Shown here: positions 59,299 through 64,000 of the stretch, piece by piece
Layout: every line of letters starts with the position of its first letter
How positions within the stretch are numbered: the stretch's first letter is position 1
Source of the DNA: Candidatus Marinarcus aquaticus
Lineage (GTDB): Bacteria; Campylobacterota; Campylobacteria; Campylobacterales; Arcobacteraceae
Direction of reading: 5' to 3'
Length of the DNA: 64,000 nucleotides
NCBI RefSeq assembly: GCF_004116335.1
Contig: NZ_PDKN01000003.1
Location: forward strand, 1-64,000
Translations under genes and position numbers: made by a program
The notes under the pieces: model-generated
Database searches by the model: none
What the model was told of the DNA's origin: nothing
What the model saw: the letters and a program-made list of their open reading frames with translations, nothing else

Positions 59299-59342
59299 CG
59301 TAATCATACTGTAACCATAATACTCTACAATTTCACATCTGT
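59299..59342 (+). promoter_or_regulatory. Putative Pho box array upstream of the EAL-CBS-GGDEF gene
   Basis: Four consecutive 11-base units start at 59299, 59310, 59321 and 59332: CGTAATCATAC, TGTAACCATAA, TACTCTACAAT, TTCACATCTGT. The string TGTAAC-N11-ACAATTTCAC inside them recurs with the same spacing upstream of pstS (61185-61228). The 11-base period is that of PhoB-type direct repeats. A -10 candidate TAATAT follows at 59346-59351. Confidence 0.65.
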
Positions 59343-59364
59343 TTCTAATATTTAGAGATGTCTG

Positions 59365-59430
59365 ATTTTATAATTAGATCTTCCTCTGTTTTAAGCGCGA
59401 ACAAAATAGTCCAAGATCTAATTATAAAAT
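59365..59430. repeat. Perfect 18-bp inverted repeat in the leader of the EAL-CBS-GGDEF gene
   Basis: ATTTTATAATTAGATCTT (59365-59382) is followed after 30 bases by its exact reverse complement (59413-59430). It lies downstream of the Pho box and -10 candidate and ends 22 bases before the ATG, so the transcript would carry the hairpin just before the ribosome site. No T tract follows, so it is not a usual terminator. Confidence 0.75.
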
Positions 59431-59452
59431 ACCTAACTTATAAAGGATTTAT

Positions 59453-61189
59453 ATGTTAGAAAAATGGATTAATATACTTAATAAGTTAGATTTCGCTTTT
59501 CAACCCATTATCCACACCTATACTGGAAAGATTTATGGCGTAGAAGCACTTCTTAGAAATGTGGAGATTGCAACAGAATACCACAACATACAAAATCTTT
59601 TTGATTGTGCTTTTGAAGATGACCTTCTTTATCAAGTCGATTTAGAGCTTCGAAAAAAAGCGATTAAAAAACTCAAAATGCTTGATATTGAAAATGTCAA
59701 ACTCTTTTATAACTTAGATAATCGAATCATCTACAGTAAGAACTGTCCACAAGGACAAACAGCCAAACTGCTTGAAGAGAATGGGTTAAAAAAAGATGCC
59801 ATCTGTTTTGAACTGAGTGAAAAGGGAAGCATGATAGAACAAAGTGCTCTTTCCTCTATGATTCAAAAGTATAAAAAAGATGGTTACAGCATTGCCATTG
59901 ATGATTTTGGTATTGGAGTATCGGGTCTAAAACTTCTTTATTACAGTGAAGCCAATATCATCAAACTCGATCGTTTTTTTATTACGAATATTCATAATGA
60001 CTCAAAGAAAAAGCTTTTTTGTACTTCCATAATTGACATGGCGCACACCATGGGAATGAAAGTGGTTGCTGAAGGGATTGAGAAAAAAGAGGAGTATTAT
60101 ACGTGTAAAGATATGGGTGTGGATTTTATTCAAGGCTTTTTGGTACAAAAACCCACCATCAAAGTCAAACAAATTGAACCCATATATAAAAACATCCTCA
60201 AACTCTTAAAACAAGACCGACGAGATGAAAACAAAAACAATATTGATTCCAGTTTCATTGAATACATCAAACCCATCAATATCAATACATCACTGCATGA
60301 TCTTTTTTTATACTTTAAAAACCAACCTCATAATACGTTTGTACCCATTGTTGATAATTATGACCACTTAAAAGGGGTCATTTATGAAGTGGATATTAAA
60401 AAAATATCCTACTCTCAATATGGTTTGTCATTGGCCAAAAATGTGTCGTACAGCAGTAACTTGTGTAAGTTTTTAAAACCAGCACTTTGTGTAGAAGCGA
60501 CATGGGGAATTGATAAAACATTAGAAATATACAATATGAATCAAGATCACTCCCGAGGAATTTTTGTCACCAAAGCCAATAAGTATCATGGCTTTATCAA
60601 TGTCAACTCTTTGCTTTCACTTTCACATAAACGTACCATTGAGATTGCAAAAAATCAAAACCCATTAACCAAACTTCCTGGGAACAACCAAATTGAAGAG
60701 TATATCTATAAAAGTTTCAAACAACTCAGAAATGAGATGGGCTTTCATATGCTCTATTTCGATTTCAATGATTTTAAACCCTTTAATGATTCGTATGGTT
60801 TCAGACAAGGAGATCGTGCCATTTTAATCTTTTCAGAACTGCTTCAAAAACTGCTGCCAAGCGATGTCTTTATTGGACACATTGGAGGAGATGATTTCTT
60901 TATTGGCTTTAAAGAGTATGATTATGAAACCGTATATGAATTTGCACATACCATTCAAAGAGAGTTTGAATCCTCCGTTGCCAATCTTTACAACAAAGAA
61001 GATCGTGAAAGAGAATTCATGGTGTGCACTGACCGATTTAATATTCAACGAGAGTTCAAACTGCTCTCTGTGGCTTGTGCCATTGTAGAAATTGGTCCAA
61101 AAACAGTTAAAAAGAACTTCGATTTTACATTAGGAAAAATCAAAAAAGTCTCTAAAAAAGCCACCAATCCTATCGGAGTGTGCTTGTAA
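59453..61189 (+). CDS. EAL-CBS-GGDEF cyclic-di-GMP enzyme
   Basis: A 578-residue cytoplasmic protein. The EAL domain (about 10-240) has the complete metal and substrate set: YGVEALLRN, FYNLDNR, FELSEKG, IDDFGIG, IIKLDRFFI, VVAEGIEKKEE and FIQGFLVQKP, so phosphodiesterase activity is likely. A CBS pair follows (about 260-390; IVDNYDHLKGVIYEV, IFVTKANKYHGFINV). The C-terminal GGDEF domain (about 400-578) has HIGGDDFFIGF, a GGDDF variant that may bind or make c-di-GMP weakly. No transmembrane helix is seen. A Pho-box-like array lies upstream and pstS follows. Confidence 0.92.
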   Translation: MLEKWINILNKLDFAFQPIIHTYTGKIYGVEALLRNVEIATEYHNIQNLFDCAFEDDLLYQVDLELRKKAIKKLKMLDIENVKLFYNLDNRIIYSKNCPQGQTAKLLEENGLKKDAICFELSEKGSMIEQSALSSMIQKYKKDGYSIAIDDFGIGVSGLKLLYYSEANIIKLDRFFITNIHNDSKKKLFCTSIIDMAHTMGMKVVAEGIEKKEEYYTCKDMGVDFIQGFLVQKPTIKVKQIEPIYKNILKLLKQDRRDENKNNIDSSFIEYIKPININTSLHDLFLYFKNQPHNTFVPIVDNYDHLKGVIYEVDIKKISYSQYGLSLAKNVSYSSNLCKFLKPALCVEATWGIDKTLEIYNMNQDHSRGIFVTKANKYHGFINVNSLLSLSHKRTIEIAKNQNPLTKLPGNNQIEEYIYKSFKQLRNEMGFHMLYFDFNDFKPFNDSYGFRQGDRAILIFSELLQKLLPSDVFIGHIGGDDFFIGFKEYDYETVYEFAHTIQREFESSVANLYNKEDREREFMVCTDRFNIQREFKLLSVACAIVEIGPKTVKKNFDFTLGKIKKVSKKATNPIGVCL

Positions 61190-61228
61190 CCAAAGTGTAA
61201 CTGACGTGTCTTACAATTTCACCATAGA
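61185..61228 (+). promoter_or_regulatory. Putative Pho box array upstream of pstS
   Basis: Four 11-base direct units start at 61185, 61196, 61207 and 61218: TGTAACCAAAG, TGTAACTGACG, TGTCTTACAAT, TTCACCATAGA. The first overlaps the stop codon of the EAL-CBS-GGDEF gene. This tandem arrangement resembles the double Pho box of pst promoters in other bacteria. It ends 21 bases before the pstS ATG. Confidence 0.72.
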
Positions 61229-61249: not shown

Positions 61250-62287
61250 ATGAATTTAAGAAAATCTGCTTTAGCATTAATTGCTGCTGCTACTGTTGCT
61301 TCATCTTTAGGAGCAAATGATCAAATTAGAATTGTTGGGTCATCTACTGTTTACCCATTTACAAGTTACGTTGCTGAAGAATTTGGTGCGACAACGGGTT
61401 TTAAAACACCTGTCGTTGAATCAACTGGTTCAGGTGGTGGTATGAAAATTTTCTGTGCAGGTGCAGGAGTTGATACTCCAAGTTTTACAAATGCTTCACG
61501 ACCAATGAAAGATAAAGAGTTCGCAACGTGTCAAAAAAATGGTGTAAAAGAGATCACTGGTTTCATGGTAGGATATGATGGGATTGCAATTGCTCAAAGC
61601 AATGACAATGCTCCATTAAACTTAACAAAAGAGCAAATTTTCTTAGCATTAGCACAAGAAGTTCCTTCAAAAGATGGTAAAAAATTGATCCCTAACCCAT
61701 ATAAAAAATGGAGTGATATTGACCCTTCATTACCAAACAGAGAAATCAGAATGATTGGTGCTCCAACAACATCTGGAACAAGAGACTCATTTGATGAAAT
61801 GGTGATGGAACACGCTTCTAAAAACTTTAAAATCTATGGTGGGAAATACAAAAAAATCAGAACGGATGGTGCATATATCCCTGGTGGTGAAAACGACAAT
61901 TTAATCGTTCAACAATTAACACAAGATAAAGCCGCTTTAGGTTACTTCGGTTACAGCTTCTTAGAAGAGAACCATGACAAAATCAATGGTGTGACTTTAA
62001 ATGGAATTGCGCCAACTGCTGAAAATATTGCAAACGGGAAATACCCAGTATCAAGAAGTCTGTTTATGTATATGAAAAATGGGCACATTGGAAAAGTTAA
62101 AGGTGTTGCTGAGTTCTTAGATCTTTATGCTACAAAAGCAATGATTGGACCAAAAGGTGTTTTAAGAAACATTGGTTTAATCCCTATGCAAGACAAAATG
62201 CTTAAAGAGGTTCAAGCTTCTGTAAAAGCAAGAACACTTTTAACTGCTGATATGGTTAAACACAAAACAGTTCTACCAGTAAAATAA
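61250..62287 (+). CDS. pstS: Phosphate ABC transporter substrate-binding protein
   Basis: 345 residues from the ATG at 61250, which has CGGAG 6 bases upstream; a TTG six bases earlier would touch the Shine-Dalgarno and is rejected. A signal peptide (cleavage after SLGA, near residue 24) precedes a periplasmic binding fold: IVGSSTVYPFTSYVAEEFG, VVESTGSGGGMKIFCAGAG (phosphate-binding serine loop) and GTRDSFDEMV near 180. It binds inorganic phosphate and delivers it to PstC/PstA. A Pho box array precedes it and an attenuator-like hairpin follows. Confidence 0.95.
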   Translation: MNLRKSALALIAAATVASSLGANDQIRIVGSSTVYPFTSYVAEEFGATTGFKTPVVESTGSGGGMKIFCAGAGVDTPSFTNASRPMKDKEFATCQKNGVKEITGFMVGYDGIAIAQSNDNAPLNLTKEQIFLALAQEVPSKDGKKLIPNPYKKWSDIDPSLPNREIRMIGAPTTSGTRDSFDEMVMEHASKNFKIYGGKYKKIRTDGAYIPGGENDNLIVQQLTQDKAALGYFGYSFLEENHDKINGVTLNGIAPTAENIANGKYPVSRSLFMYMKNGHIGKVKGVAEFLDLYATKAMIGPKGVLRNIGLIPMQDKMLKEVQASVKARTLLTADMVKHKTVLPVK

Positions 62288-62371: not shown

Positions 62372-63628
62372 ATGTCAAATGACTCTTTATATTTGATATT
62401 CTTTGGAGGGCTTATTCCACTCATCTTTATTGCCTATATGATTGGAAAAAATAAAGCTCAAGTCATATCAAATAAAGGCATTCATATAAACTCTCAACCT
62501 GAGCAATATGGATGGTTTACCGCACTTTATACAGGGCTTCCTGTGATCATGCTTTTAGTGACTGTAATGTTTTTATATCTGTTTGGACTAAAATCTGTTC
62601 CACCCATGCTTATTGTTATTTCATCTTTAGCTTTAGGGGCCATTTCACTTATTTTTGTTGTTAAACGTTTAAGCCCAACTACAAAAGCTCGTGACTCTAT
62701 TGAGTCTTTTATTCGAATTGTTCTTATCTTCGCTTCACTTATTTCAGTATTGACCACTTTTGGTATTCTTTTTTCAATTATTTTCGAATCAATTCATTTT
62801 TTCCAACGTGAAAGCTTTTTTGGATTTATTTTTGGTACCGATTGGAATCCTGATACAGCCTTTTTAGAGGGTGCTGGACGAGCAACTGAAGGTGTTGCCC
62901 AAGCACAATTTGGTGCAGTGCCTATTTTTGCTGGTACCTTTTATATTACTCTTATTGCGATGGCTGTAGCAGTACCTATTGGTATTTTAAGTGCGGTGTT
63001 TATGTCAGAGTATGCGAGCAAGAAAGTGCGAAATACGATTAAACCCACTCTTGAGATTTTAGCAGGTATTCCAACCGTTGTGTATGGATTCTTTGCGGCC
63101 ATTACTGTGGCACCTTTTATTGTGAATGTTTTCAGTGCTTTGGGTATTGATGCATCATATCGAAGTGCATTGGGTGCAGGTGTGGTGATGGGGATCATGA
63201 TTATTCCTATTATTTCCAGTTTAAGTGATGACGTTATCAGCTCTGTGCCACAAAACATTCGAAACGGTTCATTAGCCCTTGGAATGAACAAAGCAGAAAC
63301 GATTATGTTTGTTGTTATTCCTTCAGCCATGCCAGGGATTATTGCTGCTGTGTTATTGGGTATTTCAAGAGCATTGGGTGAAACCATGATTGTTGTAATG
63401 GCAGCAAGTTTACGACCAAACTTAACCATGAACCCTTTAGAAGATATGACCACCGTTACAGTTAAAATCGTAGAGTCTCTTGTAGGGGACCAAGAATTTG
63501 ACAGTTCATTAACGCTTTCAGCCTTTGCGCTTGGTTTGGTTCTATTTGTTGTAACTCTTATTATTAATATTATTTCAATTACAACCATTAGAAAATTCCA
63601 CCAAAAATATAAAATTTCGAATCTGTAA
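62372..63628 (+). CDS. pstC: Phosphate ABC transporter permease PstC
   Basis: A 418-residue permease. The N-terminal extension of about 110 residues holds two to three extra spans (LIFFGGLIPLIFIAYMIG; LYTGLPVIMLLVTVMFLYLFG), after which the usual PstC core begins near 115. FGAVPIFAGTFYITLIAMAV and EILAGIPTVVYGFFA are conserved, and ALGMNKAETIMFVVIPSAMPG near 310 is the EAA-type loop that contacts the ATPase. It is larger than E. coli PstC (319). Confidence 0.94.
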   Translation: MSNDSLYLIFFGGLIPLIFIAYMIGKNKAQVISNKGIHINSQPEQYGWFTALYTGLPVIMLLVTVMFLYLFGLKSVPPMLIVISSLALGAISLIFVVKRLSPTTKARDSIESFIRIVLIFASLISVLTTFGILFSIIFESIHFFQRESFFGFIFGTDWNPDTAFLEGAGRATEGVAQAQFGAVPIFAGTFYITLIAMAVAVPIGILSAVFMSEYASKKVRNTIKPTLEILAGIPTVVYGFFAAITVAPFIVNVFSALGIDASYRSALGAGVVMGIMIIPIISSLSDDVISSVPQNIRNGSLALGMNKAETIMFVVIPSAMPGIIAAVLLGISRALGETMIVVMAASLRPNLTMNPLEDMTTVTVKIVESLVGDQEFDSSLTLSAFALGLVLFVVTLIINIISITTIRKFHQKYKISNL

Positions 63629-63634
63629 GGCAGC

Positions 63635-64000
63635 ATGATGAAAAAAACAAACGACTTTTACATACCACAAATTGCACAACGAAACAGAAAAGCCAAACGC
63701 TTTATGTATATTACAATGGCAGCCGTGATTCTTTCACTCTCTTTTTTAGGTTTTTTCTTGTTTGATATTGTTAAAAATGGTTACCCTGCATTTCAACAAT
63801 CTTATATCAAAGTTGATGTGACCATCGATGAAGAGGCTGCTGAAAACCCTTACGGTATTTTTGATCGTGACATGAGTCAAATCATCAGCCGTGCTTGGTT
63901 ACGAAGCCTTCCTCAAGAAATCAGAGAAAATCCAGAATGGATGGGAACCACTCAAACATTTTGGGCATTAACCAATGCAGAAGCAGACCAACATGTCAAA
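63635..64000 (+). CDS. pstA: Phosphate ABC transporter permease PstA, partial
   Basis: The reading frame starts at ATGATG (63635 or 63638; AAGG at 63627-63630 suits the second slightly better) and runs to the right edge, 122 codons. One membrane helix (FMYITMAAVILSLSFLGFFLFDIV) is followed by a long hydrophilic segment (YIKVDVTIDEEAAENPYGIFD and beyond), an insertion after TM1 that longer PstA proteins carry. The permease core lies outside the window. It follows pstC by 6 bases. Confidence 0.85.
   Translation, partial: MMKKTNDFYIPQIAQRNRKAKRFMYITMAAVILSLSFLGFFLFDIVKNGYPAFQQSYIKVDVTIDEEAAENPYGIFDRDMSQIISRAWLRSLPQEIRENPEWMGTTQTFWALTNAEADQHVK

Follow-up and report, generated by a model that had tools for sequence, protein, structure and literature searches.

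Two matching Pho-type promoters at a pst locus of Candidatus Marinarcus aquaticus predict a phosphate-starvation regulon that includes a cyclic-di-GMP enzyme

The window, the whole stretch of DNA analysed, comprises 64,000 nucleotides of the genome of Candidatus Marinarcus aquaticus; the locus described here lies close to its downstream end. A gene for an EAL-CBS-GGDEF protein (EAL gene) is followed by pstS, pstC and pstA, the last of which continues beyond the window; one predicted Pho-type promoter precedes the EAL gene, a second precedes pstS, and the leader of the EAL gene contains a long hairpin. Features are given below in positions of the window, the remainder of the operon in contig coordinates.

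59300-59331, + strand: P1, predicted Pho-type promoter before the EAL gene; half-sites GTAATC (59300-59305) and GTAACC (59311-59316), -10 box TACAAT (59326-59331).
59365-59430, + strand: leader hairpin of the EAL gene; 66 nt, stem of about 25 bp, loop CGCGAACAA at 59396-59404.
59433-59459, + strand: short inverted repeat CTAACTTATAAA-GGA-TTTATATGTTAG; 12-nt arms, 92%; a tentative feature, found in the window only.
59453-61189, + strand: EAL-CBS-GGDEF gene encoding 578 aa; the product has a GGDDF domain and is predicted to be an active c-di-GMP phosphodiesterase (Pfam, orthologue alignment).
61186-61217, + strand: P2, predicted Pho-type promoter before pstS; half-sites GTAACC (61186-61191) and GTAACT (61197-61202), -10 box TACAAT (61212-61217).
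61250-62287, + strand: pstS, phosphate-binding protein; PF12849 at 157 bits, TIGR02136 at 172 bits (below its cut-off of 206.6).
62372-63628, + strand: pstC, phosphate permease; assigned from position and from orthologues in pst operons.
63635-64000, + strand: pstA, continuing beyond the window.
About C3:64982-68946, outside the window: pstB, phoU, psiE, phosR and phosS, following pstA.

An earlier note on this DNA had reported that TGTAAC-N11-ACAATTTCAC occurs before both the EAL gene and pstS, with identical spacing and about 1.9 kb apart. Both copies were recovered on the + strand (59310-59336 and 61196-61222; 1886 bp between copies) and are the only two matches with fewer than two mismatches in the 2.53-Mb genome (20 contigs); all 16 fixed bases are identical between the sites, and the sequence outside the fixed bases differs. 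The reported overlap of the pstS-side site with the preceding gene was likewise found, the TAA stop codon of the EAL gene (61187-61189) lying within the first half-site of P2. Scanned over the whole genome at three mismatches, the 27-mer of the earlier note gave 69 matches versus 79 for the reversed control, i.e. no excess; at that tolerance it is too loose, and a refined motif with an exact or profile search is required. The refined motif, GTAAYY-N5-GTAAYY-N9-TANNNT (32 bp), consists of two 6-base half-sites at an 11-bp period and a -10 box; its design was derived by comparing, across about 35 relatives, the DNA that precedes pstS and the EAL gene (GTAAYC, 5 bases, GTAAYC, 9 bases, TANNNT). 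It is found twice in the window, compared with a mean of 0.00 and a maximum of 0 in 100 dinucleotide shuffles. The shared ACAATTTCAC corresponds to the -10 box (TACAAT) and the start region.

The pho box of Escherichia coli is built from 11-base direct repeats, and its half-site consensus varies between species (PMC4415409). The phoA promoter of E. coli MG1655 (GTCATA-N5-GTCACG-N9-TATAGT) has spacing identical to that of the box described here: in both, the -35 element is replaced by two half-sites with an 11-bp period, and the -10 box follows at a fixed distance of 9 bp. The half-site core differs by one base (GTAA, within GTAAYC, versus GTCA in E. coli; C to A). As expected of PhoB-type promoters, the boxes are located before known phosphate-starvation genes (pstS, pstC, olsF, phoX).

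The regulator encoded at the end of the operon scores best, among NCBIfam families, with the PhoB family TIGR02154, at 179.8 bits and thus below the cut-off of 296.2; it is called PhosR-like here, not PhoB. Aligned to E. coli PhoB (34% overall), its recognition helix retains T194, V195, V197, R201 and L202 and carries the changes R193K, D196N, H198A and R203K; in this alignment the changes are consistent with the altered half-site. In Campylobacter jejuni, which belongs to the same order (Campylobacterales), PhosS/PhosR control pstSCAB and phoX (excerpts of PMC3197622 and PMC6250842, citing Wosten 2006); the excerpts mention no c-di-GMP gene in that regulon.

Exact matches to the refined pattern number four in the 2.53-Mb genome (before the EAL gene, pstS, olsF and the gene of an 833-aa methyl-accepting chemotaxis protein, MCP), all intergenic or at a gene end and about 20-125 bp from a start codon. 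The two located elsewhere in the genome are as follows.

G000:C4:30941-30972: predicted Pho promoter before olsF (exact refined pattern).
G000:C2:135912-135943: predicted Pho promoter before the 833-aa MCP gene (exact refined pattern).

The olsF product, a bifunctional synthase of ornithine lipid, which contains no phosphorus, scores 826.2 bits against NF052615 (cut-off 620). A matrix scan of the genome, suggested by the earlier note, was made with a profile of sequence alone, for which 49 sites of other genomes were used and the window's own sites left out. The same four genes came out on top: the EAL gene (29.9 bits, E 1.5e-6), pstS (26.2 bits, E 2.2e-5), olsF (23.4 bits, E 1.7e-4) and the MCP gene (15.9 bits, E 0.04), the last being weaker, level with a gene-internal site (E 0.045). 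Lower matches (C5:172072, C1:428468, C1:353724 and others) lie inside genes or not before plausible genes and were rejected as noise; no Pho site was found before phosR in this genome.

OlsF of Vibrio cholerae, an ornithine-lipid synthase, is induced at low phosphate via PhoBR (PMC12186959), and the chemoreceptor gene tlp2 of C. jejuni is co-transcribed with phoX and affects phosphate taxis (excerpt of PMC6250842). Because of these two precedents, all four target genes would, by analogy, make sense at low phosphate; olsF of the present genome, with its predicted box, would be controlled like olsF of V. cholerae. The genome-wide ranking, the sites at phosphate genes in relatives described below and the presence of phosRS in the same operon support the membership of the EAL gene in the Pho regulon, as the earlier note had proposed; the Pho-regulon reading of both sites is strongly supported on these grounds, and binding by PhosR and induction at low phosphate are predicted.

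Across 61 Arcobacteraceae genomes the strict box has 73 matches versus 0 for the reversed control; the EAL gene accounts for 56 of the 73. Orthologues of the EAL gene number 42 in these genomes: 33 are linked to pstC; 34 have a strict box at most 1.7 kb upstream; 22 have one 0-28 bp downstream, usually preceding pstC. The usual order is prfA / box-pstS-EAL-box-pstC-pstA-pstB-phoU-psiE-phosR-phosS. Among relatives, exact sites stand before the EAL gene, pstS, pstC and olsF, and also before genes labelled PhoX-like and second pstS by reading their protein sequences, not by a family search; 27 of 28 regions upstream of olsF carry a site 16-27 bp before the ATG with at most two mismatches to the wider pattern. 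The strict box is present in 96 of 299 Campylobacterales genomes, again with 0 matches for the reversed control; the sample consists of species representatives, and the strict pattern misses degenerate boxes. The suggestion of a lineage-specific site is not upheld: the box is order-wide, since it occurs in so many Campylobacterales genomes and before many phosphate genes with a control of 0, and it has E. coli geometry.

The EAL gene also keeps company with phosphate genes where the usual order is broken. In loci that lack pstCAB (L042/G042, L193/G035, L196) it stays with phoU, with boxes on both sides, and with psiE-phosR-phosS where these are covered; outside the pst operon it lies beside olsF (with boxes in L044/L188; also in L053), behind phosS, from which a 1-mismatch box separates it (L052), or downstream of an MCP gene (L059, L078, L187), and has its own box in L043 and L054. 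Where it accompanies olsF, phosS, phoU or an MCP gene, a box is upstream in most cases. No box with at most one mismatch was found directly upstream of the EAL gene in L059, L078, L053, L187 and G031, and no strict box in G049 and G057, in which the gene is nevertheless pst-linked. That it recurs next to different phosphate genes argues strongly, from gene neighbourhood, for a shared function, and the EAL gene is on this comparison a predicted core member of the Pho regulon. We found no report in the literature of an EAL gene in the pst operon of Arcobacter or its relatives. In other Arcobacteraceae (L152, L153, L155), strict Pho boxes also stand before genes for a PotD-like binding protein and a GntR-type regulator; these are possible further regulon members, e.g. 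for phosphonate use.

The protein encoded by the EAL gene matches EAL (PF00563) at 163 bits and GGDEF at 53.5 bits in Pfam; the CBS domain scores 23.3 bits, against a gathering cut-off of 24, and 27.3 and 24.9 bits in the orthologues L052 and L063. The closest orthologues are from Epsilonproteobacteria bacterium UBA4036 (84%) and Arcobacter sp. EP1 (77%). Ten EAL residues, which make up the complete catalytic-motif set (E31, N87, E120, E123, D150, D151, K171, E207, E210, Q227), are invariant in 33 orthologues; in the same set the GGDEF signature is invariantly GGDDF, which departs from the GG[DE]EF of cyclases, and an RxxD I-site is absent. From these motifs the protein is expected to be an active c-di-GMP phosphodiesterase with the GGDDF and CBS domains as nucleotide sensors, and the GGDDF domain may be regulatory. 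The direction of the change in c-di-GMP is one that we infer, because the GGDDF domain could add cyclase activity.

Gene order and identities suggest how the two promoters came to lie 1.9 kb apart. The window and its sister genome have the order box-EAL-box-pstS-pstC. The pstS, pstC and pstA of the window are 71, 78 and 77% identical to those of a distant genus of the family (G001) versus only 52-57, 59-67 and 65-67% to those of sister lineages, which the EAL gene (77% to L033), pstB and psiE resemble. Part of the pst operon (pstS, pstC, pstA) has thus likely been replaced. On the simplest reading, drawn from identities and not from a tree, the locus lost its old pstS and received a foreign-type pstSCA block behind P2, and this would be why two near-identical promoters now stand so close together. 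For pstS of relatives, a 5' hairpin in which CCAT would pair with the ribosome-binding site was also considered and rejected, as arms swapped between species paired as well (1832 of 2000 permutations).

Taken together, both arrays are very probably promoters of one phosphate-starvation locus that are activated by PhosR, a PhoB-type regulator, in the following manner. Low phosphate would activate PhosS/PhosR, whose genes close this operon; PhosR would then bind as two molecules, head-to-tail, on the GTAAYC half-sites 11 bp apart, in place of a -35 element and 9 bp before the -10 box; P1 would drive the EAL-CBS-GGDEF gene, and P2, placed over the EAL stop codon, pstS-pstC-pstA-pstB-phoU-psiE-phosR-phosS. 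The EAL enzyme would degrade c-di-GMP and so favour motility over attachment; at the same time the regulon would raise phosphate uptake, exchange phospholipid for ornithine lipid (olsF) and provide the chemoreceptor. The ancestral order would have been P1-pstS-EAL-P2-pstC, and the likeness of the arrays would go back to their shared past as pst-operon promoters; in the window's genus the old pstS would have been lost, P1 then facing the EAL gene, with the foreign-type pstS-pstC-pstA block behind P2. The conserved hairpin in the EAL leader would add control at the RNA level.

Precedent for Pho control of a c-di-GMP phosphodiesterase is provided by RapA of Pseudomonas fluorescens, which is PhoB-controlled and has a pho box upstream; at low phosphate c-di-GMP falls and biofilm detaches (PMC3032545). 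The EAL gene is set apart by its place within the pst operon in most Arcobacteraceae and by its conserved leader hairpin; the domains of its product stand in the order EAL-CBS-GGDEF. The c-di-GMP enzymes AcgAB of V. cholerae, proposed to be under PhoB (PMC12351708), are encoded by different genes in a different context. Pho control of c-di-GMP was previously known from such single cases as RapA; throughout a whole family of mostly environmental bacteria, its gene now proves to be part of the pst operon or linked to other Pho genes, and the choice between remaining attached and leaving appears to be wired directly to phosphate supply. A further outcome is a concrete, order-wide model of the predicted PhosR binding site that can be used for scanning.

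Each array had been described in the earlier note as four successive 11-base units, and four tandem PhoB-type units with two PhosR dimers per promoter would be the corresponding reading. Tandem pho boxes are present at E. coli pstS, and unit 3 of the pstS site (GTCTTA) retains 3 of the 6 bases of GTAAYC; unit 3 of the EAL site (ACTCTA) matches at 1 of 6, and unit 4 reads TCACAT (EAL site) or TCACCA (pstS site). Only units 1 and 2 repeat, units 3 and 4 being spacer, -10 box and start region. In 55 sites of relatives, which were selected with half-sites and -10 box fixed and are informative only for the absence of signal in unselected columns, information content is about 1.1-2.6 bits per column in the near-invariant units 1 and 2 and about 0-0.25 bit in unit 3 except at the -10 hexamer, so that the four-unit reading was rejected as very improbable. 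The boxes might instead be bound by another OmpR-family regulator, or respond mainly to another stress, the link to pst being co-regulation only; the differences of PhosR from E. coli PhoB in the recognition helix and the presence of an MCP among the targets would agree with this. The targets in relatives are, on the other hand, the classic phosphate set (pstS, pstC, phoX, olsF), and phosRS, located in the same operon, stay with the EAL gene where pstCAB is lost; we consider another regulator unlikely, if somewhat less so than the four-unit array. That the match merely reflects a recent local duplication of a promoter-sized piece, devoid of regulatory meaning, would suit the identity at 16 of 16 fixed bases over a distance of 1.9 kb; sequence outside these bases differs, the sister genome (L032) carries both boxes with different spacers, its P1 equivalent being retained despite this, and both boxes are widespread in Arcobacteraceae, so that a duplication is already contradicted by the family-wide comparison and has a negligible probability. 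Control of both sites by PhosR is preferred over all three.

In 23 aligned EAL leaders compensatory changes are found in 18 of 19 stem pairs of the hairpin, and a near-invariant loop, GCGAAC, sits on a stem whose sequence drifts; covariation scores 0.659 versus 0.258 +/- 0.021 in shuffles and at most 0.18 with the arms slid. G.U pairs exceed A.C mismatches (37 versus 13; in 15 sequences versus 2), an excess that points to a sense-strand RNA rather than DNA, the p-value being only indicative as the sequences are related. The 9-mer CGCGAACAA is confined, in 882 kb of fetched sequence, to EAL leaders plus one alphaproteobacterial locus. A covariance model run over the 61 genomes matched the EAL leader in 23, at 5-69 nt before the match start; many of these leaders also built the model, and the informative part is the absence of other strong matches, one convincing second copy in the window's genus excepted. 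No hairpin was detected outside Arcobacteraceae across Campylobacterales, nor in 19 EAL leaders of the 61-genome sample, and because of the latter it is not essential for the EAL gene. A dispersed mobile repeat was rejected, as each genome has a single strong copy and, apart from that second copy, all are at the EAL gene. Rfam gave chance-level matches and none at gathering score, and a known riboswitch was therefore rejected; like the cis-RNAs and riboswitches of Rfam, the hairpin is a covarying cis element before one gene, but it has no match there. A published scan of Arcobacter sp. L left several genus-restricted motifs unnamed (excerpt of PMC6429828) and may, judging from that excerpt, already have touched this element.

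The hairpin is thus a candidate new, previously uncatalogued cis-regulatory RNA, a covarying leader absent from Rfam and attached to one signalling gene. There is about an even chance that it represents a new class, read by a protein, small RNA or ligand and gating translation or stability, which would place the EAL gene under double control together with PhosR. Somewhat below even, and compatible with the PhosR reading of the promoters, we place a general element of mRNA stability or processing that sets the plentiful pstS message apart from the remaining operon mRNA: the hairpin directly follows pstS in most relatives, the second copy follows a transporter gene, and the stem, through its length and near-perfect pairing, would suit RNase III or a protective role against decay. 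The hairpin is, however, kept where no pstS precedes it (window, L032, L042, L146, L193), and stability alone does not explain a nearly invariant GCGAAC loop on a drifting stem. In three loci (L146, L149, L193; genomes G014, G027, G035) the 3' arm of the hairpin includes the EAL ribosome-binding site, so that translation could be controlled there. In the short inverted repeat of the window (59433-59459) the ribosome-binding site is near the loop and the EAL start codon in an arm; a separate fold differs, and the structure is uncertain. The second copy of the hairpin (L206 2774-2848, i.e. G000:C1:64273-64347, - strand; L207 3142-3218) is situated between a sodium:solute symporter gene and a cNMP-CBS-DUF294 gene; the genes that follow the two hairpins, in the EAL leader and here, both encode CBS-type signalling proteins.
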